Origin: Candidatus Aenigmatarchaeota archaeon | Lineage (GTDB): Archaea; Aenigmatarchaeota; Aenigmatarchaeia; GW2011-AR5 | Assembly: GCA_016193585.1 (NCBI GenBank) | Contig: JACPRW010000003.1 | Coordinates: 1-64,000, forward strand | DNA: 64,000 nucleotides | Reading direction: 5' to 3' | Shown here: positions 49,992 through 63,225 of the stretch, one piece after another | How positions within the stretch are numbered: the stretch's first letter is position 1 | Layout: every line of letters begins with the position of its first letter | Notes under the pieces: model-generated | Seen by the model: the letters and a program-made list of their open reading frames with translations, nothing else | What the model was told of the DNA's origin: nothing | Database searches by the model: none | Position numbers and translations under genes: made by a program

Positions 49992-50801
49992 TTAAAAGCC
50001 GTTGGTGAGGAACGTGATGCTCCTGCCTATCATGTCGTGGGCATTGAGCGTCAGAAACCCTTCTGCTGTCCTGAACACGACGAGGTTTCCTTTTGCCGCA
50101 ACGACAGACCCTGCTATTGCCGCATGTTCCTTGATCTGCAGGTATGTTGGCTGCTTGACGACGGTATGGAGGCGGTAATAATCCCTGAGGTCATATATCT
50201 CGGGCTTGATGAGCCACGGGAAGTTCTGGTCCCTGAGCACGGCAATCGCCGTGCGCAGGCTCGGCGCTGCCTTGTTGGGGCTCCCGAAGAGCAGCGAGTG
50301 CTTCTGGTCGCCGCGCATCCTGTCCGTTACCTTGAGCAGTTCCTTGACGCGCTGCTCAGCTTCGCGCACGTCCTTGCCGTCCTGAAGGTAGCCGATTTTT
50401 GCGCCCATGTCGGCACCCTGTTCGACAAGCCGCTTGAGGAGCCTGCTTTCATGCGAGATGCCGACCTTGAGGACGCCGTCAAAGGCGGCAAGATACATGT
50501 AGTAGTGCTCGGTTTTGCAGTCCTCTCTCCGCTTGGGGTTTATGCACACGTCGCCGGTGCATGCCATGCATAGGGAAAACCAGTCCTCGCTCCTGCAGGC
50601 AGCGCAGTTCGAGCCGTAGTCTATCTTCCTTTGGTCAGGGCACGGGTAGTGCCTGCTGTCCCGCACAAAGCCGGTGCAGAACTTCTCGCCGAGCGCTATG
50701 TTGAAATGCTGCCCGAGCAGCTTCAGCTTGAACTGTGCATCGCCTTCCCGGGCTATGAAGAAAGGCTCCCAGTCTATCCAGTTGTATTTTATGAGTTGCA
50801 C
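49992..50801 (-). CDS. DUF2797 family protein
   Basis: A 269-residue archaeal/bacterial DUF2797 protein. Several Cys pairs (CAACRS, CMACTGDVC) suggest zinc binding, and a GIY-YIG-like core (YYMYLAAFDGVLKVGISHES) is followed by RLLKRLVEQGAD. The known GIY-YIG resemblance suggests a nuclease-like or RNA-linked role, which is unproven. It overlaps the next upstream gene by 13 nt. Confidence 0.75.
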   Translation of the reverse strand: MQLIKYNWIDWEPFFIAREGDAQFKLKLLGQHFNIALGEKFCTGFVRDSRHYPCPDQRKIDYGSNCAACRSEDWFSLCMACTGDVCINPKRREDCKTEHYYMYLAAFDGVLKVGISHESRLLKRLVEQGADMGAKIGYLQDGKDVREAEQRVKELLKVTDRMRGDQKHSLLFGSPNKAAPSLRTAIAVLRDQNFPWLIKPEIYDLRDYYRLHTVVKQPTYLQIKEHAAIAGSVVAAKGNLVVFRTAEGFLTLNAHDMIGRSITFLTNGF

Positions 50802-51397
50802 GACACCACCCGTTCGTATGCGCTGGTAGCGGCGGCAACCTCCCTCAGGGAAAGTCTGCCGGAGAGGAGAACGAACAGCTCCTTTGCCTGTGCCTCGTAG
50901 GAAACTGGATAGGAAAACCGCGAGACCATGTTCATGAGGAATTCGGCATCATAATCGTCAATTCCGTAGAAGCTGAGCCATGGTATGTTGATGCCGATGA
51001 ATGCTTCCATGGTCGCTATTTTTGGCTGGTGGTACAGGAGCGACAGGTACCAGTAATAGAAGAGGTCCTGCTGGTGCGTCTTGGCGATTTTCCTGCTGAC
51101 AAAGACGTCTTCCACAGGAGCGGGTGCCTGCATGACCTTCCTGAGCTCGGCCTTGAGGAGGCTGCTGATAAGTACTATGCTGATCGCCCGTTCGTCCTTC
51201 TCGAGTATCTCTCTCCTGTAGTAGTTGACATGGATTTTCGCGGCATCATCCGACAGCTCTATCGCGTCCTTCTCGCAGAGCGAGATGGAAATGCCGTTGA
51301 AGTTGAGGTAGGTGAACGACGGGATTACCGTGTCAACAATCCTGGAGAATACGCGGGCGCGCTCGTCGTGCAGGTGGAAAGACTTCCGCAACTTCAT
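50789..51397 (-). CDS. Hypothetical protein, DUF2797 operon partner (202 aa)
   Basis: Not recognised. A soluble helical protein (SIVLISSLLKAELRKVMQAP..; YWYLSLLYHQPKIATM). Start ATG 51397 is 27 nt from the TATA-like GGTTAAATC. It overlaps the DUF2797 gene by 13 nt, so they are expressed together. Confidence 0.6.
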   Translation of the reverse strand: MKLRKSFHLHDERARVFSRIVDTVIPSFTYLNFNGISISLCEKDAIELSDDAAKIHVNYYRREILEKDERAISIVLISSLLKAELRKVMQAPAPVEDVFVSRKIAKTHQQDLFYYWYLSLLYHQPKIATMEAFIGINIPWLSFYGIDDYDAEFLMNMVSRFSYPVSYEAQAKELFVLLSGRLSLREVAAATSAYERVVSCNS

Positions 51398-51509
51398 GCT
51401 TGTACATTTGCTTGTGCTTCGATTTAACCTTTCGGTTAGACTTTGAAATAGATGTGTATTTAATTTTCTCTTTAAAATATGCATCTTTATGCAGGGAAGG
51501 ATAGAAACC

Positions 51510-52064
51510 ATGGGAAAAGGTGCTACGTTCTTTTCATTAGATTGGAATAAACTTGTAAAAGTGCCTGCAGAAAAGGGTTATTATATAGAAGCTTTTGGTT
51601 CTGCAGATGCACTTATTGATAGTGAATTGGAAATGCTATTAAAATCCATTTATTCTAGTAGCGAGTCTCAAGACCTAATAGACGAAATAGGTTATTTACG
51701 TGGAACCAACGGTTTTGATGGGTTACTTATCGCACAAATTTTAGAATCAAAAACTTTGATAAAATCCGATTTAGTTGAAAAAGTAAGAAAATGGAAAAAA
51801 GCCAGAAATATAGTATTGCATGATACGTACGCTGAATATGGATTGGTTATTCTGAATCCAGATTTTTCTTACAACAACCAAAAGGAACTCGATGATTTGG
51901 TGCAAAAAGAAGCTGATAAATGGCTTAAGTTGGCAGACGATATTTCCCTAGAATTGTCACTGTCTATACCTAAGACAGATGAAAAAAGACGTTGGTATTT
52001 TTCTACAGAATTCTATGAAAAGTATCCAAGAGTAAAACAAATAAAAAAGCGTTTTCCTAAATAG
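51510..52064 (+). CDS. HEPN-like protein in AT-rich island
   Basis: A 184-residue product from a markedly AT-rich gene between GC-rich neighbours. Near residue 100 it contains KARNIVLHDTYAEYG; RNIVLH fits the R-x4-H motif of HEPN nucleases. The family often acts as an RNA-cleaving toxin in defence or toxin-antitoxin systems; no antitoxin gene is next to it. ATG 51510 was preferred over 51489 because a TATA-like TTTAAAATA lies about 35 nt away. Likely horizontally acquired. Moderate confidence in the motif. Confidence 0.55.
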   Translation: MGKGATFFSLDWNKLVKVPAEKGYYIEAFGSADALIDSELEMLLKSIYSSSESQDLIDEIGYLRGTNGFDGLLIAQILESKTLIKSDLVEKVRKWKKARNIVLHDTYAEYGLVILNPDFSYNNQKELDDLVQKEADKWLKLADDISLELSLSIPKTDEKRRWYFSTEFYEKYPRVKQIKKRFPK

Positions 52065-52199
52065 TTTTAGTTAGTTCTCGTACTAGATGACTAAAGCTCT
52101 ACAACTCCTTTTCTATATTCCTTCCACCCGCGGTTTGAGTAAAGTCTCCTTCGTTGAGAACGCTTTTAAGCTTTGTAAGTATGAATAAGTATGAAATTT

Positions 52200-52637
52200 A
52201 TGAAGGTAGCCATTGGTTCCGACCATGCAGGACTTGAGCTCAAGGAGAAGATAAAGAAATTCCTGGACAGTAAGGGAATCGCGTACGAGGATTGCGGCGC
52301 ACACAGCATGGAAAGCTGCGACTACCCCGATTACGTCGCCAAAGTCGCCGGCGCAGTGGCGTCAGGCAGGTGTGAGCGGGGCATTTTCGTCTGCAAGACA
52401 GGAGCAGGAACCAGCATGGCAGCGAACAAGGTGAAAGGCATCAGGGCCTGCCAGGTGTTCAGTGTGGAAGCGGCGCGCCTGAGCAGGGAGCACAACGACG
52501 CGAACTTCCTTGCGCTGGGCGACATGCAGCCCCATGACACGGTCATGAGCATAGTCGACGCATGGCTTGCAACCAAGTTCAGTAATGAGGAGCGGCACCG
52601 CAGGCGAATCAAGAAATTGCACGATCTTGAAAGATGA
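52200..52637 (+). CDS. rpiB: Ribose-5-phosphate isomerase B
   Basis: Interconverts ribulose 5-phosphate and ribose 5-phosphate. A 145-residue RpiB starting MKVAIGSDHAGLELKEKI with the catalytic Cys in FVCKTGAGTSMAANKVKGIR. ATG 52200 lies 29 nt after TATA-like CTTTTAAG and is the family start; the ATG at 52191 is too close to the box. First gene of rpiB-rpe-tal. Confidence 0.9.
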   Translation: MKVAIGSDHAGLELKEKIKKFLDSKGIAYEDCGAHSMESCDYPDYVAKVAGAVASGRCERGIFVCKTGAGTSMAANKVKGIRACQVFSVEAARLSREHNDANFLALGDMQPHDTVMSIVDAWLATKFSNEERHRRRIKKLHDLER

Positions 52638-52641
52638 GCAT

Positions 52642-53289
52642 ATGACAGCTATCAAGGTGGGAGCCTCGCTCCTGTCCGCAAACTATGGCCGGCTGGAGGA
52701 GGAAATAGAGAAACTGGAAAAGGCAGGAGTTGATTTCCTGTCGTTCGACGTGATGGACGGCCATTTCGTCGACAACATCTCGTTCGGTCCTGCCATCGTC
52801 GGCTCGCTGCGCGGTGTCACGAAGCTGCCGTTTGAGGCGCACCTTATGGTCGAGCATCCGGAGAAGTTCGTGCCTGCGTTTGTTGACGCAGGCTGCGATA
52901 TGCTCACCGTGCATGTGGAAGCGGCGCGCCACCCGGAGGACCTCATTGCATCTATTCGGAAGGATGCGCGTGCCGGCCTTGCAATCAGCCCTGAAACGCC
53001 TGCTGAACGGATACTGCCGTTCACGGGCGTGATAGACATGGCGCTTATCATGACCGTCAAGCCTGGTTTCGGAGGGCAGCGGTTCATCGACCAGAGCGGG
53101 AAGATACGACAGGTGAGGGCTGCCGTTGGCAAAGAGGGCGCAGCAGCCGACATCGGGGTCGATGGTGGGGTAAACGACCGTACGGCAAAAGTTGCGGTGG
53201 CCGCAGGAGCCAACGTCCTTGTTGCGGGCTCGTTCATCACGGGCCAGCCGGATTATCGTGACGCGGTGCGGAAGCTGAGGGGATTATGA
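52642..53289 (+). CDS. rpe: Ribulose-phosphate 3-epimerase
   Basis: Interconverts ribulose and xylulose 5-phosphates. A 215-residue barrel with ASLLSANYG, FDVMDGHFVDN (metal site), LMVEHP, VKPGFGGQ and IGVDGGVN. It starts 4 nt after the rpiB stop (TGAGCATATG region) and overlaps tal by 4 nt. Confidence 0.94.
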   Translation: MTAIKVGASLLSANYGRLEEEIEKLEKAGVDFLSFDVMDGHFVDNISFGPAIVGSLRGVTKLPFEAHLMVEHPEKFVPAFVDAGCDMLTVHVEAARHPEDLIASIRKDARAGLAISPETPAERILPFTGVIDMALIMTVKPGFGGQRFIDQSGKIRQVRAAVGKEGAAADIGVDGGVNDRTAKVAVAAGANVLVAGSFITGQPDYRDAVRKLRGL

Positions 53290-54653
53290 CGGCAGAACAT
53301 CCTTTTTTCGCCGCGCTCGCGGGCAATGGCCACGTACTGTCAAGGGATTTCACGACCGTCCGCGACATGACGTCGGGATGGCTCGAGCAGCTGGTGAAGC
53401 GCGGCATCGTGTACGCCATAACGACGAACCCCACGTCAAACGATATGGTGTACGCGAGCGAGCCAGGCCTCAGGGAGAAGATGCGCACGCTGGTGGCAGG
53501 AGGCATGAGGGATGCAACCCGGATATACGACGAGCTTTTCATAAACTCTATCATCGTTCCTGCGACCGCGATACTCGAGCCGGTGAACCGGCGCATGATG
53601 GGAATAGCGTACGAGAGAAAATCGAGGCGCGTGGTGCTCCAGAAGGAAACAAGATTTCTTCACGGCTATGCAAGCTACGAGTTCAGGCATGTTTTCACCA
53701 AGGACCCGGTAGTGAAAAGAGAGGAAGATGTCATTGCCGCGATTGCAGAAATCATGAGGCTTTCGCATCTCATCATGGAAAAAACTGGCAGGAAGAATTT
53801 TTTCATAAAGGTGCCTGCAACGCCTGCAGGCATCGAGGCAGGCGCGAGGGCGATAAGCATGGGCTACAACATAAACTTCACGCTGGTCGCATCGAGGAAG
53901 CAGTATGAAGCGACCGTGGAAGCGGCGGTGCGCGGCAAGCGCGATTATGCTGCCGGAAGAGGCGCCGGCGTGCTCGGGCAGCTGCGCGCCGTAAATGACG
54001 CGAAGGTCCGCGCCGCGGTTGCACGGCATGAGGCGCTGGTTGGAGTGCTTCCCGAGGTCCCCGACCCGGGGAGTGAAATAGGCGCGGAAAGTGTTTCCTC
54101 AGATTTTGTATCAAGGACAGACAGGGTACTTGACCCGTTGCTGCTGAAAGCAGGCAGGAACGACCTTGTGGGAAAGGCTGGCATAGCATACGTCAAGGCG
54201 GCAATCTATCCCGTGTTCGAAGCCTATTTCATGGAAGACGCGGCAAAGCACCTGCTCGGCGAAACGTGGCAGCAGTTTGCGCAGCGGACCGGCTCGCGCA
54301 TACAGCAGATATACTGGGGCTCGACCGGCGTAAAAGACGCCAATGGTGCGTATACGACAGACCCCAAATATACGGGTCAGCTGAAAGCGCCCGGAACGAC
54401 CAACACAGCGCCTCCGGAGGTTATCGACGCCTTGAGCAGCATGCCTGTCGAGCAGATGCCGTTCGATGCGTCGCTCACCATATGGGACAATCGTGATGTG
54501 GCTGCACGGGTACTGGAAGAGATTGCCGGGCTCGGCATCGATATTGAGGCGCGGCTGCATCAGGTCTACCTTGACGGCCTGGCGTCCTTTGCAAAGTCAG
54601 ACGCTGCGACCTTCCAGAAAATCGAGGCTGATATAGTAAACTGCGTTACTTAG
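53286..54653 (+). CDS. tal: Transaldolase, long type
   Basis: Transfers dihydroxyacetone between fructose 6-phosphate and erythrose 4-phosphate to give sedoheptulose 7-phosphate. 455 residues, matching the long transaldolase type with catalytic lysine in NFFIKVPATPAGIEAG and WGSTGVKD. It overlaps rpe (ATGA). No transketolase is in the window. Together with rpiB and rpe it can provide the C7 sugar needed by the downstream heptose genes. Confidence 0.93.
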   Translation: MTAEHPFFAALAGNGHVLSRDFTTVRDMTSGWLEQLVKRGIVYAITTNPTSNDMVYASEPGLREKMRTLVAGGMRDATRIYDELFINSIIVPATAILEPVNRRMMGIAYERKSRRVVLQKETRFLHGYASYEFRHVFTKDPVVKREEDVIAAIAEIMRLSHLIMEKTGRKNFFIKVPATPAGIEAGARAISMGYNINFTLVASRKQYEATVEAAVRGKRDYAAGRGAGVLGQLRAVNDAKVRAAVARHEALVGVLPEVPDPGSEIGAESVSSDFVSRTDRVLDPLLLKAGRNDLVGKAGIAYVKAAIYPVFEAYFMEDAAKHLLGETWQQFAQRTGSRIQQIYWGSTGVKDANGAYTTDPKYTGQLKAPGTTNTAPPEVIDALSSMPVEQMPFDASLTIWDNRDVAARVLEEIAGLGIDIEARLHQVYLDGLASFAKSDAATFQKIEADIVNCVT

Positions 54654-54836: not shown

Positions 54837-55316
54837 ATGGCTAAGGAAAATATCAAAACGCTCGAAGAACTGAAGGCGATTGTCGCGGATGCGAAGAACA
54901 GCGGCCTCACGGTCGTGACGACGAATGGTGTGTTCGACGTGCTGCACATAGGCCATACGCGGTACCTCGACAGGGCGAAGGAGCATGGTGACATGCTTGT
55001 TGTCGGTGTCAACAGCGACGCCTCGGTGAGGAGACTGAAAGGCCCGGCAAGGCCGCTCGTGCCCTGTACCGAACGAATGGAAATCATTGCCGCGCTCGAA
55101 TCCGTTGATTATGTATTCCCCTTTGACGAGGACACGCCGGTGGCGTGGATAGGGCAACTGAAGCCCGATGTGCACGTAAAAGGCGGCGATTACAAGGACC
55201 TACCCGAACGAGGTGCTGTCGAGCGTGGCGGCGGCAGGGTCGTTATCGTTGAAAAGACCGGGGAAAAATCAACGACTAACCTCATCAAAAAAATAATCTC
55301 TGTGTGCAAAGGGTGA
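54837..55316 (+). CDS. Heptose 1-phosphate adenylyltransferase (RfaE2/HldE C-terminal type)
   Basis: Adds AMP to heptose 1-phosphate to make ADP-heptose. A 159-residue cytidylyltransferase-fold enzyme with the motif GVFDVLHIGHTRYLDRAK (H-x-G-H) and KGGDYKD, like the adenylyltransferase half of bacterial HldE, here a separate protein. Its stop is followed 4 nt later by the kinase-isomerase gene with ribosome site GGTGA. Confidence 0.9.
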   Translation: MAKENIKTLEELKAIVADAKNSGLTVVTTNGVFDVLHIGHTRYLDRAKEHGDMLVVGVNSDASVRRLKGPARPLVPCTERMEIIAALESVDYVFPFDEDTPVAWIGQLKPDVHVKGGDYKDLPERGAVERGGGRVVIVEKTGEKSTTNLIKKIISVCKG

Positions 55317-55320
55317 TGTG

Positions 55321-56847
55321 ATGTTCAGGCTTGCAGAACACGTGTCCAAATTAAATGGTAGGAAGGTGCTTGTCGTAGGGGACATCATGCTCGACAAATA
55401 TATTGCCGGCGATGTCACGCGGGTTTCCCCCGAGGCGCCGGTCCCTGTGGTGAGCATCTCAAGCGAAAACTACACGCCGGGCGGCGCGGGGAACACGGCG
55501 AAGAACGTGACGTCCCTGGGAGGCGAAGCATACCTCGTGGGTGTCGTGGGGGCGGATGCCTCGAAAGATATCCTGCTGAAGCAGCTCCATCACGAGGGCG
55601 TGCGCACCGAGCACATAGCCATCGACGCGTCAAGGCCGACGACCGAGAAGATTCGCATACTCGGCAACAACCAGCAGCTCCTGCGAATGGATTCGGAAAA
55701 GGTGCACGAAATCCGCCACGAAGTCGAGGACCTGATTGTCGCCTCGATCGAGACGCTGGTGGGAAAGGTTGATGTCATCGTCGTTTCTGACTACAACAAA
55801 GGCGTCATAAGCGGCCGCGTGATGGACAAGCTTAAGGAATGTGCGGAACGGTACCAGAAGCGTATCGTTGTCGACCCGAAGCCGGCGCATAAGGAATTGT
55901 ACAAAGGGTTGTATGTCATAACGCCGAACATCCACGAGGCGCATGAGATGAGCGGCATGCATGGCATGGCGGATAGTGACATCGAGCGCATCGGAGCGGC
56001 GCTGAGGAACAGCCTTGCGGCGAATGTGCTCATCACCAGGGGCGACAGGGGGATGACGCTCTGCACAGAGAGCGGATGCCTGCATGTGCTGACCGAAGCA
56101 CGGGAAGTTTATGATGTTTCCGGGGCGGGCGACACTGTTGCCGCAACGCTTGGGCTCGGGATAGCAGCAGGGCTGTCGCTGCATGAGGCGGCGACGCTGG
56201 CCAACTATGCCGCAGGCGTGAAGGTGGGAAAGCGCGGCACGGCAACGGTAACGCCCGACGAGCTGAAGTCGGTGCTGCGCTGGGAAATTTCCGCGTACCT
56301 TGAGGAAAGCATCGACGTCAAGCGCGCAGTGATAGAAAAGCAGCTTGACAAGATAGAGGCGATAACCAAGCTCATTATCGAAACGTACAAGAACGGCAAT
56401 AAAATACTCGTTTTCGGGAACGGCGGGTCTGCAAGCGACGCCCAGCATTTCGTCGGCGAACTTGTCGGCCGCTTCAAGGTCGACAGGGCAGGGCTTCCTG
56501 CGCTGTCGCTGAACTCGGACACGACAATCCTGACCGCGGTGAGCAACGATTTCGGCTACGAAACCGTGTTCGAGCGCCAGGTCGGCGCCCTGGCGAACAA
56601 AGGCGACCTGGTCATCGGCATAACGACGAGCGGCAACTCGGAAAATGTCGTCAGGGCCATCGAGAAAGGGAAAGCGATGGGCCTGAAGACGGTGAGCCTG
56701 ACAGGCAAGGACGGCGGCAGGGTGGCGAAGCTGGCGGACATCTCGGTTATCGTCCCTTCCGACAATACGCCGCGGATACAGGAAGCGCACATAGCTATAA
56801 TCCACATCATCTGTGAACTGCTCGAGAGAAATCTTTTTCTCAAATAG
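55321..56847 (+). CDS. Heptose kinase (RfaE1/PfkB) fused to phosphoheptose isomerase (GmhA)
   Basis: A 508-residue fusion of two heptose enzymes. Residues 1-315 form a PfkB kinase like the HldE N-terminal domain (GGAGNTAKNV, DPKPAH, TRGDRGM, DVSGAGDTVAA). Residues about 335-508 are a SIS isomerase of GmhA type (FGNGGSASDAQHFVGELVG). One protein would isomerise sedoheptulose 7-phosphate to heptose 7-phosphate and phosphorylate it. ATG 55321 follows the adenylyltransferase by 4 nt with GGTGA; the GTG at 55318 is less likely. A GmhB phosphatase is not seen. Confidence 0.92.
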   Translation: MFRLAEHVSKLNGRKVLVVGDIMLDKYIAGDVTRVSPEAPVPVVSISSENYTPGGAGNTAKNVTSLGGEAYLVGVVGADASKDILLKQLHHEGVRTEHIAIDASRPTTEKIRILGNNQQLLRMDSEKVHEIRHEVEDLIVASIETLVGKVDVIVVSDYNKGVISGRVMDKLKECAERYQKRIVVDPKPAHKELYKGLYVITPNIHEAHEMSGMHGMADSDIERIGAALRNSLAANVLITRGDRGMTLCTESGCLHVLTEAREVYDVSGAGDTVAATLGLGIAAGLSLHEAATLANYAAGVKVGKRGTATVTPDELKSVLRWEISAYLEESIDVKRAVIEKQLDKIEAITKLIIETYKNGNKILVFGNGGSASDAQHFVGELVGRFKVDRAGLPALSLNSDTTILTAVSNDFGYETVFERQVGALANKGDLVIGITTSGNSENVVRAIEKGKAMGLKTVSLTGKDGGRVAKLADISVIVPSDNTPRIQEAHIAIIHIICELLERNLFLK

Positions 56848-58270: not shown

Positions 58271-59092
58271 ATGGTGAAAGCGATAATTCTTGCGGCAGGA
58301 ATGGGGACGCGGCTGCGTCCGCTGACGTATGGCATACCCAAGCCACTGCTGCCGGTCAAGGGACGACCGATAATCGACTGGGTGATACGGAACGTCCTCA
58401 CGTGCAAGGAAGTCGACGAGATAGTTATAGCGATACCAGGCACAACAGGTGAGAATTTCCACGACAGGGTCCTGTCCCATACGCACGGCATTTGCGTCGA
58501 CAGCTACGTACGAAACCTGAACTACGGCTGCAGGATACGGACCATTCCGACCCCGCAGAAGGAAACCGCAGGAGACCTGCGGCATGTGATAGACGAGATG
58601 GGCATCAGCAGTGGCAGCATCATTGTCGCATACGGCGACAACCTGACCGGCATAAATCTTGGCGAGATGGCGGACTACCACCAGAGAGCGGCAGATGAAC
58701 TGGGTATTGCAGCGACCGTCCTCCTCTTCAGTGTTCCTGAGAAGGATGTCGGCAGGTTTGGTATCGCAAAGGTCAGGAAGCAGGGCAGCTTCGATCTCAT
58801 AGAACGTTTCGTGGAGAAGCCGGAAACGGGAAATGCCCCTTCAAACCTCGCCAACGCCGGGTATTACATTCTCGACGTCGGGCAGATAGGCAATTACCTG
58901 AAAAAAGAGAAAGTGAAGGTCGAGGAATCGCTCTTTCCTTATCTGGCCGGACAGGAAAAGCTCGCGGGATTTGTTGCCAACCTGCCGTTCTGGATAGACA
59001 TAGGGACGCTTGAGGCTTACGAGGAAGCGAACAAGCTGGTGCACGACCGGCTTATCATCCCGCCGCCGGTTCCCGAGAACAATGCTGACTAG
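58271..59092 (+). CDS. Sugar-phosphate nucleotidyltransferase
   Basis: Makes an NDP-sugar from a sugar 1-phosphate. 273 residues with the pyrophosphorylase signature AIILAAGMGTRLRPLTYGIP and KPLLPVKGRPII, then ERFVEKPE and NAGYYIL. Related to glucose-1-phosphate/mannose-1-phosphate nucleotidyltransferases. ATG 58271 was chosen over 58250. No left-handed helix repeat domain is seen. Confidence 0.88.
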   Translation: MVKAIILAAGMGTRLRPLTYGIPKPLLPVKGRPIIDWVIRNVLTCKEVDEIVIAIPGTTGENFHDRVLSHTHGICVDSYVRNLNYGCRIRTIPTPQKETAGDLRHVIDEMGISSGSIIVAYGDNLTGINLGEMADYHQRAADELGIAATVLLFSVPEKDVGRFGIAKVRKQGSFDLIERFVEKPETGNAPSNLANAGYYILDVGQIGNYLKKEKVKVEESLFPYLAGQEKLAGFVANLPFWIDIGTLEAYEEANKLVHDRLIIPPPVPENNAD

Positions 59093-59131
59093 AGCGTTGG
59101 CGGCGGCGCAGTTGTGTGTTCGGTGCGTGTC

Positions 59132-60259
59132 ATGAACAGCAGAGCATTGCGGTTGGTCGACAGGTACGCCGGGACGCTGCTGTATATCCTGTTGTTTCTC
59201 GCGAGCAAGCTGTACAAGCCCAGAACGTTCGCAAACAAGCGCATCCTTGCGATAAAGCTCTGGGCAGTGGGCGAAACCGTGCTTGTCCTCCCTGCGCTCA
59301 GGGAGTTGAAAGAGAAGGGCTACACGATTTCATTTTTGTCGACGCCGAACAACAGGGACATAGCTGCTGCTTCTGGCTTGTTCGATGAAGTCATCTGCTT
59401 CGACCCGAAGGAGCCTGCGGGCATGGTGAAGACGATACGCTCATTGCGCGAAAGGAGGTACGGCATTGCCATGGATTTCGAGCCGTACGCCAGGTTCTCC
59501 GCCATCCTCTCGTACATTTCCGGGGCAGGGCGACGCATCGGGTTTGCGAATCGTCCCCTGCTGTATACGGACGCTGTTTTTCCTGACGAGCGCATGCACG
59601 CAGTGGCGAATTTTGCGCGCCTCGCGAACGTTCTGGAGGAAATACGAATGCCGGAAAGCCTGGTACCGCTGCGCCCGAGCAATGCCGCCCGCCGGTGGGT
59701 TGATGCCTTTCTGAAAAAGAGGGGCATCAGGAACGGGGATGTGGTTGTCGGCATCCATGCAGGCTCAGGCGCGAGTTCGGTGGCGCGGAGGTGGCGGGAA
59801 GAGAAGTTCGGGTCGCTGTGCAGGAATCTCGCGGAGAAGTACAATGCCAAGGTCGTCCTTGTTGGCAACGAGACTGGCGTGAACAGGGTGATACATTCCA
59901 TGGCGCCGGGAACGATAGACGCGAGCAGGAAGATGAGAATAGAGGAAATCGCCGCGTTCATGGAGCAGTGCGCGCTTTGTATCGCAAATGATTCCGGCAT
60001 CATGCACATCGCAGCAGCGATGGGCACGCCGACCATCGGATTGTTCGGGCCGAACACGCCGGATTGCTACGGGCCGTATGGGAAAAGGTGTGTCGGTTTA
60101 TACAAAGGTCCCGGCACGCCCCTGATAAGGCCCTTCCGGGCGCAGTTCCCTGAAACATTTGAAATAAACTATATGGATAAAATAACGGTCGATGACGTCA
60201 TGGCCGCGGCGAAAAAGCTGCTTGCTAGCCGCCCAGGTGCGCGTATTCGCCGGACGTGA
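59132..60259 (+). CDS. GT9 heptosyltransferase-like glycosyltransferase
   Basis: A 375-residue glycosyltransferase family 9 member, the group that transfers heptose from ADP-heptose in bacterial LPS core synthesis. Features: an N-terminal membrane-associated stretch (LLYILLFLASKLYK), VGIHAGSGASSVARRWREEK, and CIANDSGIMHIAAAMGTPTIGLFGP. Given the heptose genes around it, ADP-heptose is the likely donor. ATG 59132 was preferred over GTG 59114. It converges on the RHH gene, overlapping 35 nt. Confidence 0.88.
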   Translation: MNSRALRLVDRYAGTLLYILLFLASKLYKPRTFANKRILAIKLWAVGETVLVLPALRELKEKGYTISFLSTPNNRDIAAASGLFDEVICFDPKEPAGMVKTIRSLRERRYGIAMDFEPYARFSAILSYISGAGRRIGFANRPLLYTDAVFPDERMHAVANFARLANVLEEIRMPESLVPLRPSNAARRWVDAFLKKRGIRNGDVVVGIHAGSGASSVARRWREEKFGSLCRNLAEKYNAKVVLVGNETGVNRVIHSMAPGTIDASRKMRIEEIAAFMEQCALCIANDSGIMHIAAAMGTPTIGLFGPNTPDCYGPYGKRCVGLYKGPGTPLIRPFRAQFPETFEINYMDKITVDDVMAAAKKLLASRPGARIRRT

Positions 60260-60974
60260 CGTAGCCTATGAGTTGCCTCATTCTCGACAGCTTGGGGAAC
60301 AGGTCTTTCTCGAGTGATTTCACCCCGTGCATCACGTCGAAGATTTCAGGCTTGAATAGGTATATCCCTGCGTTGATGAGATGGGAACTGGCAGCTTTCG
60401 GTTTCTCCTGAAAGTCGGTGATGAAATCGCCGTCCAGCGTCACCGACCCGTATTTGGTCGGCCTGCGGTGCGTTATGAGCCCCATGGTGGCAAGCTTGTC
60501 CTTGTGCATGTGTTTCTCCACCATACTCCTGAGGTTGAACTGGTTGTAGATGTCACCGCTCATCACAATGAAGTCTCTGCAGAAGCTGTCGCGGATGGAA
60601 AATAGTGCCTCGCCGTTGAACCGCTTGTCCGTCCTGCGAACCTGCGCCTCGATGCCGGTTTTCGCGAGTTCGCTTTCGATGTTCTCATCGCCACCATCCT
60701 GCGCCAGTATGATGATGGTTGACACCATATTTCCCCGGAAAAAGTCTGCCTGCTGCTTCAGGAGAAAGGAAGTCTTGAACTGCTCGAACGCGATTTTCTG
60801 GTGTGCCTTGCTGAGCAGTATCACCGCGGTGTCCGCAGTCTGGCTATCGAGCCCCCGCCTGACAAGGACTTCTATCGACTGGCTCCTGCTCCGTATCCTC
60901 GAGCCGTCCACTTTTGCATCGACCATTTTCAGTATGTCTTTGTTGAGTGATATGGCAATTTTCTTCTTCTCCAT
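60225..60974 (-). CDS. Ribbon-helix-helix protein fused to nucleotidyltransferase-like domain
   Basis: A 249-residue fusion. Residues 1-45 (KKKIAISLNKDILKMVDAKV..RSRSQSIEVLVRRGL) are a ribbon-helix-helix DNA-binding domain. The rest resembles a sugar nucleotidyltransferase (VMSGDIYNQF, GLITHRRPTKYGSVTLDGDF, EKPKAASSHLINAGIYLFKP), but the start lacks the GxGTRLRPLT catalytic loop. So it is probably a regulator that binds a sugar nucleotide or phosphate rather than an enzyme. ATG 60974 lies about 28 nt from TATA TATTTAAG; a dyad overlaps the promoter. It sits inside the heptose cluster. Confidence 0.75.
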   Translation of the reverse strand: MEKKKIAISLNKDILKMVDAKVDGSRIRSRSQSIEVLVRRGLDSQTADTAVILLSKAHQKIAFEQFKTSFLLKQQADFFRGNMVSTIIILAQDGGDENIESELAKTGIEAQVRRTDKRFNGEALFSIRDSFCRDFIVMSGDIYNQFNLRSMVEKHMHKDKLATMGLITHRRPTKYGSVTLDGDFITDFQEKPKAASSHLINAGIYLFKPEIFDVMHGVKSLEKDLFPKLSRMRQLIGYVTSGEYAHLGG

Positions 60975-60980
60975 ATGATA

Positions 60981-60997
60981 GTATGAAATATTCATAC
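60981..60997. promoter_or_regulatory. Operator of the RHH-nucleotidyltransferase gene
   Basis: GTATGAA-ATA-TTCATAC, 7-bp arms and 3-nt spacer, lies between the TATA box (60996-61003) and the start codon of the RHH gene. Position and symmetry fit binding by an RHH dimer and autorepression. Confidence 0.5.
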
Positions 60998-61195
60998 TTA
61001 AATAGCTCTGCAGAAACCCGAAGCATCCGCCGGACGCAGAAGCAGGCATTGCAGCCGTGGTATACTACTACCCGGTTTTCTGCGGGCGTTGCTGCAGAGC
61101 CACGTATAGTGGAACAAGAAAACAATCAGGGCATCATTCTTGTTTTGCTGTGAGGAGTCCGAAGAAATCGTATGCCGGTTATTTCTTTGGACGGC

Positions 61196-61227: not shown

Positions 61228-62139
61228 ATGAACGTCCTTGTAACAGGTGGCGCGGGCTTCATCGGGTCTAATCTGGCGCTGGCGCTGCAGGACGAGCACG
61301 AGGTAACGGTGATCGACAATTTCTCGAGCGGCGCAAGGAGGAATCTTGAGGGGTTCGAGGGAATCCTGCTGCGCGCTGACATGGCATCGCTTGATTTCAA
61401 TTGCCTTGACGCAGACGTTGTGCTTCATCACGCGGCAATCACCGACACGACGCTCAACGACAGGGAAAAGGTCATGAGCGTCAACTGCACGGCATTCGGC
61501 AAGCTGCTCGCGTGGTGCGTCGAGAAAAATATCGACCTCGTGTACGCTTCCTCGGCAAGCGTCTACGGGAACGGCCCGGCACCGATGAAGGAAGGCCAGA
61601 AACCGGACCCGCAGAACGTCTATGCGCAGTCGAAGCTGCTGATGGAGGAAATGGCACGCAAGGCCGAAGGCATAAAGGTTATCGGTTTCCGCTATTTCAA
61701 CGTATACGGCCCGAGGGAGCAGTACAAGGGCGCGGCGGCGAGCATGATCTTCCAGCTGTACAGCCAGCTGCTGGCGGGCAAGAAGCCACGCCTTTTCAAG
61801 TACGGTGAGCAGCAAAGGGACTTCGTGTACGTCAATGATGTCGTCCGCGCCAACATACTCGCGATGAAGTCAAAAGTGGGCGGCGTCTTCAATATCGGGA
61901 GTGGCGCGGCGGCGAGCTTCAACGAGATCGTGCATATCCTCGAGGAAGCGCTCGGCGTCGAGCGTGAAATCGACTACTTTGACAATCCCTACGGCTTCTA
62001 CCAGAACAATACGCTGGCAGACCTTGCACATACAAAAAGCGTTCTGGATTATGAGCCGTCTTTCAGTTCAAGGAACGGCATTGCGAAGTACGTTGAATGG
62101 CTTGAGGAACAAAGGAGCGTGTCGGAGGTGGTCTTATGA
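61228..62139 (+). CDS. hldD: HldD-like nucleotide-sugar epimerase
   Basis: A 303-residue short-chain dehydrogenase with MNVLVTGGAGFIGSNLALAL, the catalytic S and Y in YASSASVYG and NVYAQSKLL, and FRYFNVYGPREQYKG. The core (VLHHAAITDTT, GFRYFNVYGPRE, RDFVYVNDVVRANI, FYQNNTLADL) is closer to bacterial HldD, which epimerises ADP-heptose at C6, than to GalE. That fits its place after the heptose genes. Its stop overlaps the GT4 gene start (ATGA). Confidence 0.8.
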   Translation: MNVLVTGGAGFIGSNLALALQDEHEVTVIDNFSSGARRNLEGFEGILLRADMASLDFNCLDADVVLHHAAITDTTLNDREKVMSVNCTAFGKLLAWCVEKNIDLVYASSASVYGNGPAPMKEGQKPDPQNVYAQSKLLMEEMARKAEGIKVIGFRYFNVYGPREQYKGAAASMIFQLYSQLLAGKKPRLFKYGEQQRDFVYVNDVVRANILAMKSKVGGVFNIGSGAAASFNEIVHILEEALGVEREIDYFDNPYGFYQNNTLADLAHTKSVLDYEPSFSSRNGIAKYVEWLEEQRSVSEVVL

Positions 62140-63225
62140 AGGTGGCAATCCTTCATGATTACTTTCGATAAGCGGGGCGGTGGCGAGAAGGTGGCACTGG
62201 CGCTGGCTAAAGCCTTCGATGCGGACATTTACACAGGTTTCGTCAATTACGAAAGCACGTATGAAGAAGTGAGAGATGCGTCGGTTGTCGAGATAGCCAC
62301 GGATATGCGCATACGCGGACTGAGGACGCTGGTGCTGTTGCATAAGTTCGGAAAACTGGTTCTCAGGGAGTACGATGCTTATATTTTCTCAGGAACGAAC
62401 TGCATCACGGCGAATGAAAAGAACAGGCCGTGTGTCTGGTACTGCCACACGCCTGCACGGCACCTCTACGACCTGCATGACTGGTTCATGTCCCGCGCCG
62501 GATTGACGGGCAGGGTCCTTCTGAAAGCTCTCTGCAGGTACCAGAAGCCCACCGACCAGCGGCATGCCTCCCGCTTCGACGCAATTGCCGCGAATTCGCG
62601 CAACGTGAAGCGAAGAATCAGCGAATACTACGGCACAGAAGCCGGGAAGAAAACGTCTGTCGTGTACCCGCCGGTGGACACCGGGAACTTCAGGTGGGCA
62701 GGGCAGGGCGATTTCTACGTGTCGATGGGCAGGCTGGACAAGCTGAAACGGGTCGACCTCATCGTGGAAGCGTTCAGGAACATGCCGGAAAAGGAGTTGA
62801 AAATAGTGTCGTCAGGTCCTGAACTGAACGCCATCAGGAAGCTTGCGCAGGGCTGCGAAAACATAGAGGTCGTCGGCTACGTGGACGAGCACACGCTTCG
62901 GTACCTGCTTGGACGATGCATCGCCTCGATTTACGTTCCCGTGCACGAGGACTTCGGGCTTTCGGCAGCCGAATCGCTCGCGGCAGGGAAGCCCTGCATC
63001 GCCGCCGGCGAGGGCGGACTGCAGGAAATTGTCGATAATGGGAAAACGGGTCTGCTCATTGACGCAACTCCAGAATCTATCAAGGACGCCGTCACTGCCC
63101 TCGGCAGGAAGCGCGCCGGGCGGATGAGGAAGGCGTGCGAAACAAAAGCGAAGCTCTTTTCGGAAAAGCGGTTCGTGAAGGGCATGAAGGGAATTGTGGA
63201 AAGGGTGTGTGACAGGGGAACGTAG
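62136..63225 (+). pseudogene. GT4 glycosyltransferase, N-terminal frameshift
   Basis: The coupled ATG 62136 (overlapping the hldD stop) gives MKVAILHDYFR then a stop; one base later the family sequence runs on as DKRGGGEKVALALAKAFDAD through the whole enzyme (open frame 62155-63225). A one-base insertion in TTTCGATAAG near 62164-62169 joins them. The protein has the GT-B features PVHEDFGLSAAESLAAGKPC and MGRLDKLKRVDLIVEAF. Either an assembly error or +1 recoding. It should transfer a sugar in surface-glycan synthesis. Confidence 0.85.

Follow-up and report, generated by a model that had tools for sequence, protein, structure and literature searches.

Is a protein that joins a DNA-binding domain to a sugar nucleotidyltransferase fold without its catalytic loop an enzyme, a regulator or both, and which genes does it control? 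The question is raised by a minus-strand gene coding for 249 residues (60974→60225; ATG at 60974, stop at 60225-60227) in the 64,000-nucleotide stretch of Aenigmatarchaeota DNA analysed here, which we call the window. Alignment with homologues backs the start at 60974. A longer start at 61049 was rejected: it would cross the putative operator and the TATA box described below, and the homologues begin at 60974. The 3' end of the gene overlaps a convergent gene for a GT9 heptosyltransferase (59114..60259, plus strand). The gene for HldD, the ADP-glyceromanno-heptose 6-epimerase, is divergent from it (61228..62139, plus strand; TIGR02197, 305.8 for a cut-off of 274.6). All the genomes used for comparison are assemblies from uncultured organisms.

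Domains and catalytic residues of the protein

A sequence-only reading of this DNA had proposed an N-terminal ribbon-helix-helix (RHH) domain, followed by a domain that keeps the nucleotidyltransferase (NTase) core but not its GxGTRLRPLT loop. For the single window protein, the RHH domain (residues 1-46; 60837..60974, minus strand) falls below the Pfam cut-off (RHH_1, 15.3 vs 20.5 bits). It was confirmed with a profile of the family, which matches Escherichia coli NikR (1q5v), the nearest solved RHH protein, with an E value of 8e-7, and through which the strand-helix-helix profile criterion of the RHH (MetJ/Arc) superfamily is met. The DNA-contacting strand reads KKIAIS in the window protein and ERVTIT (RVTIT) in its relatives, while the half-site of the putative operators is unchanged.

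The second domain (residues 48-249; 60228..60833, minus strand) matches the Pfam NTP_transferase family (PF00483) with 65.7 bits (cut-off 21.2, E 6e-18). As only profile positions 94-194 are covered, the N-terminal half that bears the loop is missing from the match. An AlphaFold2 model of the 249-residue protein, computed from an alignment of 69 family members, reached a mean pLDDT of 89.5 and a pTM of 0.82. Its best Foldseek match in the PDB is the GMPPA/GMPPB complex (7d74_G; E 1.2e-16, TMq 0.72), and plant GDP-mannose pyrophosphorylase and HddC were also returned. The model thus has a sugar-NTase fold, in keeping with the proposed core, and as far as a prediction can show, residues 50-249 do not adopt an unrelated fold.

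The loss of the loop was likewise borne out. In an alignment with 82 relatives, the GxGTR NTP-binding loop is absent from the window protein, and the region at residues ~54-67 (60774..60815, minus strand) reads LSKAHQKIAFEQFK where loop-intact relatives have GGKGTRxRPITYEIPK (GxGTRLRPxT...PK). The first metal Asp (Asp1, D141) is invariant in 83/83 aligned members, and the position of the second (Asp2) is occupied by H246, so that the protein does not have the two metal-binding Asp residues that define sugar-1-phosphate nucleotidyltransferases. The motifs on the sugar side are kept, namely G140-D141, Y175-G176, E190-K191-P192 and N201-A202-G203. Judged from sequence alone, which establishes the fold and the loss of catalytic residues in the absence of activity data, the C-terminal domain is an NTase that no longer catalyses. 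The retention of Asp1, EKP and NAG could be taken to mean that the window protein remains an enzyme whose loop is unusual, but as neither the second metal ligand nor the GxGTR loop is present, this is hardly tenable.

With the catalytic loop erased and Asp2 lost, ligand binding could be lost too, and many RHH repressors work without a ligand. The NTase-like domain would then be no more than an oligomerization scaffold, and an unliganded autorepressor would fix the level of the heptose genes. We consider this unlikely, however, because Asp1 is invariant in all aligned members and because the sugar-side pocket is conserved among relatives at 48% identity. In the subgroup of the window protein, the pocket residues, which were defined beforehand (GD, YG, EKP, NAG and the EK of SLEKDLFP), are invariant in 12/12 cases vs 62/202 across the domain (p 3e-7). 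This subgroup comprises only four sequences, two of them nearly identical. From the retained sugar-side pocket and the precedent of GMPPA, we infer by analogy that the domain probably senses a sugar phosphate or a nucleotide sugar.

Putative operators at the regulator gene and at the heptose operon

Between the start codon of the gene and its TATA-like box (CTATTTAAG; 60997..61005, minus strand, ~27 nt from the ATG, assigned by sequence) lies the palindrome AGTATGAA-ATA-TTCATACT (60980..60998, no strand assigned), which we call putative operator O1. Its half-sites, GTATGA/TCATAC, are 11 bp apart, with a gap of 5 bp. A 7+3+7 dyad over the gene's own promoter had been put forward as a site for the RHH domain. 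This dyad is real: it is perfect at 60981-60997, extends to 8+3+8 at 60980-60998 and occurs once in the window, where 0.15 occurrences are expected even if 3 mismatches are allowed. It is also unique in the 1.17 Mb genome, in which the next-best sites carry 3 mismatches, and it has counterparts upstream of homologues at only 48% protein identity (AGTATGAAATATGCATACT in the related genome G005 and AGTATGATAGTTTCATACT in G004).

Upstream of many other family members, TTCATACT is repeated in tandem every 10 bp. In a count that covered all 6-mers, with no preset motif, GTATGA was the commonest paired 6-mer in 77 upstream regions. It was found in 19 of them (mean 0.01 and maximum 1 in shuffles), and 19/22 GTATGA pairs have a 10 bp spacing. 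A reversed-pattern control overlaps the same sites and so cannot serve as an independent check on the tandem pattern, which was judged by shuffles and placement. GTATGA sites are also present at some genes of CPR bacteria (loci L177, L196 and L202). The conserved pairing agrees with RHH dimers sitting on repeated short half-sites, in the absence of binding data.

In the window's family, all 16 genomes with an RHH-NTase gene have an exact site, and two of the three genomes without such a gene have none. Outside this family, the co-occurrence of site and gene is weak (5/13 vs 5/27, p 0.25), in part because of half-site variation (GTATTAC). Upstream of the genes at L160 and L192, the variant half-site GTATTAC/GTAATAC retains the 11-bp palindromic geometry, which suggests co-evolution of the RHH domain and its operator. 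Separately, a GTATGA-N5-TCATAC palindrome adjoins a GalU-like gene in G020 (L214 5242-5258), where an RHH-NTase was not found at E<=1e-10.

The only exact tandem site of the window's genome, putative operator O2 (TTCATACT-TA-TTCATACT, 10 bp repeat; 52178..52195, minus strand), is located in the promoter of a heptose operon, between a TATA-like box (CTTTTAAG; 52163..52170, plus strand, assigned by sequence) and the start of rpiB. This first gene, coding for ribose-5-phosphate isomerase B (52200..52637; TIGR01120, 150.6 bits, cut-off 138.65), opens a run of genes on the plus strand. They code for the ribulose-phosphate 3-epimerase Rpe (52642..53289; TIGR01163, 234.5, cut-off 212.6), a transaldolase-like protein (53286..54653; below cut-off), HldE domain II, which is the heptose-1-phosphate adenylyltransferase (54837..55316; TIGR02199, 178.4 bits, just under the cut-off of 181.5), a fusion of the heptose-7-phosphate kinase (HldE domain I) with the GmhA isomerase (55318..56847; TIGR02198, 356.7, cut-off 345; TIGR00441, 217.3, cut-off 209.45), a UDP-glucose dehydrogenase, an active-looking NTase (58274-59092) and the GT9 enzyme. 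Together with HldD, the operon products cover the steps that lead from pentose phosphate to ADP-L-glycero-D-manno-heptose, except for GmhB, which was outside the search. The kinase-GmhA fusion is a single 509-residue ORF with both parts above the NCBIfam cut-offs, and it is also found in G005 and G011.

Two genes on the minus strand (49992-50801 and 50789-51511) have no NCBIfam match in the window; their homologues are found near an RHH-NTase gene or operator in G001, G003, G004, G014 and G021. At 62137-62170, the frame of a GT4 glycosyltransferase gene seems broken near its start, with MKVAILHDYFR followed by a stop and the remainder in another frame, which could be an assembly error.

The HldE kinase is present in only five of the 59 related genomes (G000, G002, G004, G005 and G011). 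All five have a GTATGA pair at the operon promoter, in tandem in four of them and palindromic in G002, where the site also faces a GT9 gene. By a rough estimate, the chance of such a site at one promoter is 5e-5. Window-type loop-less proteins are encoded in four genomes, all of which have the HldE kinase, and in all four (the relatives being G004, G005 and G011) the regulator gene is convergent with the GT9 gene. In G005 and G011, the operon site precedes the TATA box, unlike in the window. The sequence-only reading had also supposed that the protein controls the glycan genes; the second matching operator at the heptose promoter and the recurrence of this arrangement in relatives support it. 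Although no binding data are available, this conservation of the operator and the identity of the two promoters make O1 and O2 strongly supported as predicted DNA targets of the regulator.

As the operon itself codes for an active-looking NTase, the protein might mainly tune an active NTase such as this one, with DNA binding being secondary or coupling both activities. The best fold match provides a model for this, since non-catalytic GMPPA binds GDP-mannose and regulates GMPPB (PMC11228364). Nevertheless, no match to the operon NTase was found near the regulator gene in G005 and G011, yet the operator and the RHH domain are conserved, and we give little credence to such a role. It is also conceivable that the GTATGA sites belong to a different RHH protein, for which the gene of the fusion protein is merely one target among others, as the genome contains six other small RHH ORFs and NikR uses the same half-site. 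However, none of the six is recognisably NikR-like by eye, the sites precede RHH-NTase genes in two domains of life, and the RHH domain of the RHH-NTase proteins is the closest to NikR, all of which makes another binder very improbable.

Spread of the family and state of the loop

No RHH-NTase regulator was found described in a literature search, which is weak evidence of absence as most subscription papers were outside it. To that extent, the earlier remark that no such regulator is described stands. The protein is not a single case, however: it belongs to a large family found in DPANN archaea and CPR bacteria. Of the 59 related genomes, 36 encode homologues (E<=1e-10), many of them full length. 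When GTDB species genomes were scanned with the N-terminal 68 residues, 355 relatives were obtained, the best 80 of which belong to Aenigmatarchaeota, Woesearchaeota, Altiarchaeota, Nanoarchaeota, Diapherotrites and many CPR phyla. Translation of these 80 showed that nearly all are RHH-NTase fusions.

Many members of the family still look catalytic. Of the 83 aligned members, 41 retain the Thr-Arg pair of the loop; on a quick tree the state of the loop changes at least five times, and the members that lost it do not form one clade. The gene that directly follows that of a loop-intact member, in the same orientation, tends to code for a phosphomannomutase/phosphoglucomutase: the loop is intact at 25/27 loci with this neighbour vs 20/53 other loci (p 2.5e-6). 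Thr-Arg is lost in eight of the nine members adjacent to HddA. No correction for relatedness was applied to these counts. Among the best 80 of the 355 relatives, the RHH-NTase gene is preceded by an exact tandem site at all nine HddA-adjacent loci. In other Aenigmatarchaeota, this gene is divergent from that of an HddA-like kinase, the tandem site lying in the interval that separates them, and at L085 the kinase gene is followed by genes for GmhA, a HAD-NTase fusion and an epimerase. The simplest history would be that of an autoregulated nucleotidyltransferase that was recruited to heptose operons and in which the enzyme domain then degenerated to a sensor.

In some relatives the sites are at gluconeogenic genes, and thus the regulon there appears wider than heptose synthesis. 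The genes concerned are a DUF2090 aldolase-like gene near a fructose-bisphosphatase-like gene in G005, G011 and G016 (the phosphatase by inspection only), FBP aldolase/phosphatase in G003 and PGK in G010; G005 and G011 also have a site between the PEP synthase and phosphomevalonate kinase genes. Tandem operators near gluconeogenic or carbon genes are located at L068 6928-6943, L207 4950-4965, L215 3748-3763, L076 6869-6884 and L075 6843-6858. The genes of this wider regulon may have in common that they direct carbon into sugar nucleotides.

On the whole, we lean towards a family of RHH-NTase regulators that spans DPANN and CPR organisms with one ancestral GTATGA operator. Its loop-intact members would be autoregulated enzymes encoded beside phosphomannomutase, and several lineages would have decayed to pure metabolite-sensing transcription factors, for heptose genes here and for gluconeogenic genes as well in some relatives. 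Within this one family, the sequences form a graded series from putative autoregulated enzyme to putative dedicated transcription factor.

Proposed mechanism and known systems

We consider it likely that the window protein is a one-component transcription factor for heptose (surface glycan) synthesis and for its own gene, acting as a DNA-bound repressor that senses a pathway metabolite. RHH dimers would bind GTATGA half-sites one helical turn apart, in a palindrome at O1 and in tandem at O2, and the bound protein would block TBP/TFB or RNA polymerase. Repression is the most likely outcome since both O1 and O2 lie between TATA box and start codon, although activation is not excluded, given the position of the operon site in G005 and G011. 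The C-terminal domain would bind a pathway metabolite, with heptose-1-phosphate or ADP-heptose as first candidates; as the NTP loop is lost and the sugar side retained, ADP-heptose is no more likely to be the ligand than a heptose phosphate. The ligand would shift the affinity for DNA and so provide product feedback on the transcription of the heptose genes. That the RHH domain of the window protein itself binds the sites, that the protein represses and which ligand it recognizes are inferences, with no wet data.

Few regulators are understood in DPANN archaea and CPR bacteria, whose genomes are reduced. For such cells, the protein represents a candidate widespread sugar-sensing regulator with defined operator and targets. 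Two short pieces of DNA and a single soluble protein would suffice for a direct test of how ADP-heptose synthesis is regulated in an archaeon.

NadR, a helix-turn-helix domain fused to an NMN adenylyltransferase-like domain, is likewise a DNA-binding domain joined to a nucleotidyltransferase, and it exerts feedback control on its own pathway; it differs from the window protein by its unrelated HTH and its different nucleotidyltransferase family. NikR, the closest solved RHH protein by sequence, has the same half-site, its operator being GTATGA-N16-TCATAC (PMC7055735). The half-sites are N16 apart for NikR and 11 or 10 bp apart in the window, and the spacing differs as the sensor differs: NikR has a C-terminal nickel-binding domain, whereas the C-terminus of the window protein has the NTase fold. 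Membership in the NikR group was rejected, as the nickel domain is absent and the half-site spacing is wrong.

PutA is an RHH domain fused to proline dehydrogenase and an autogenous repressor of its own pathway (PMC5293562), an arrangement that the loop-intact relatives match. The enzyme fold is different, and the window protein is devoid of catalytic residues and thus not an active-enzyme fusion, whereas its relatives look intact. It does have an autogenous operator and control of its own pathway in the manner of PutA, but only on the sequence evidence of O1 and O2.

GMPPA acts on a partner enzyme and is not known to have a DNA-binding domain, unlike the window protein. It has the same fold as the window domain and, as a non-catalytic paralogue of GDP-mannose pyrophosphorylase, serves as a nucleotide-sugar sensor (PMC11228364). 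HddC and archaeal GlmU/RmlA-type NTases share the fold and the sugar-side motifs of the window domain; they retain GxGTRLxPLT and the second Asp and have no RHH domain, the window protein being the opposite in these respects. We therefore class the protein with the enzyme-derived one-component regulators, and not with the NikR, PutA or sugar nucleotidyltransferase groups.
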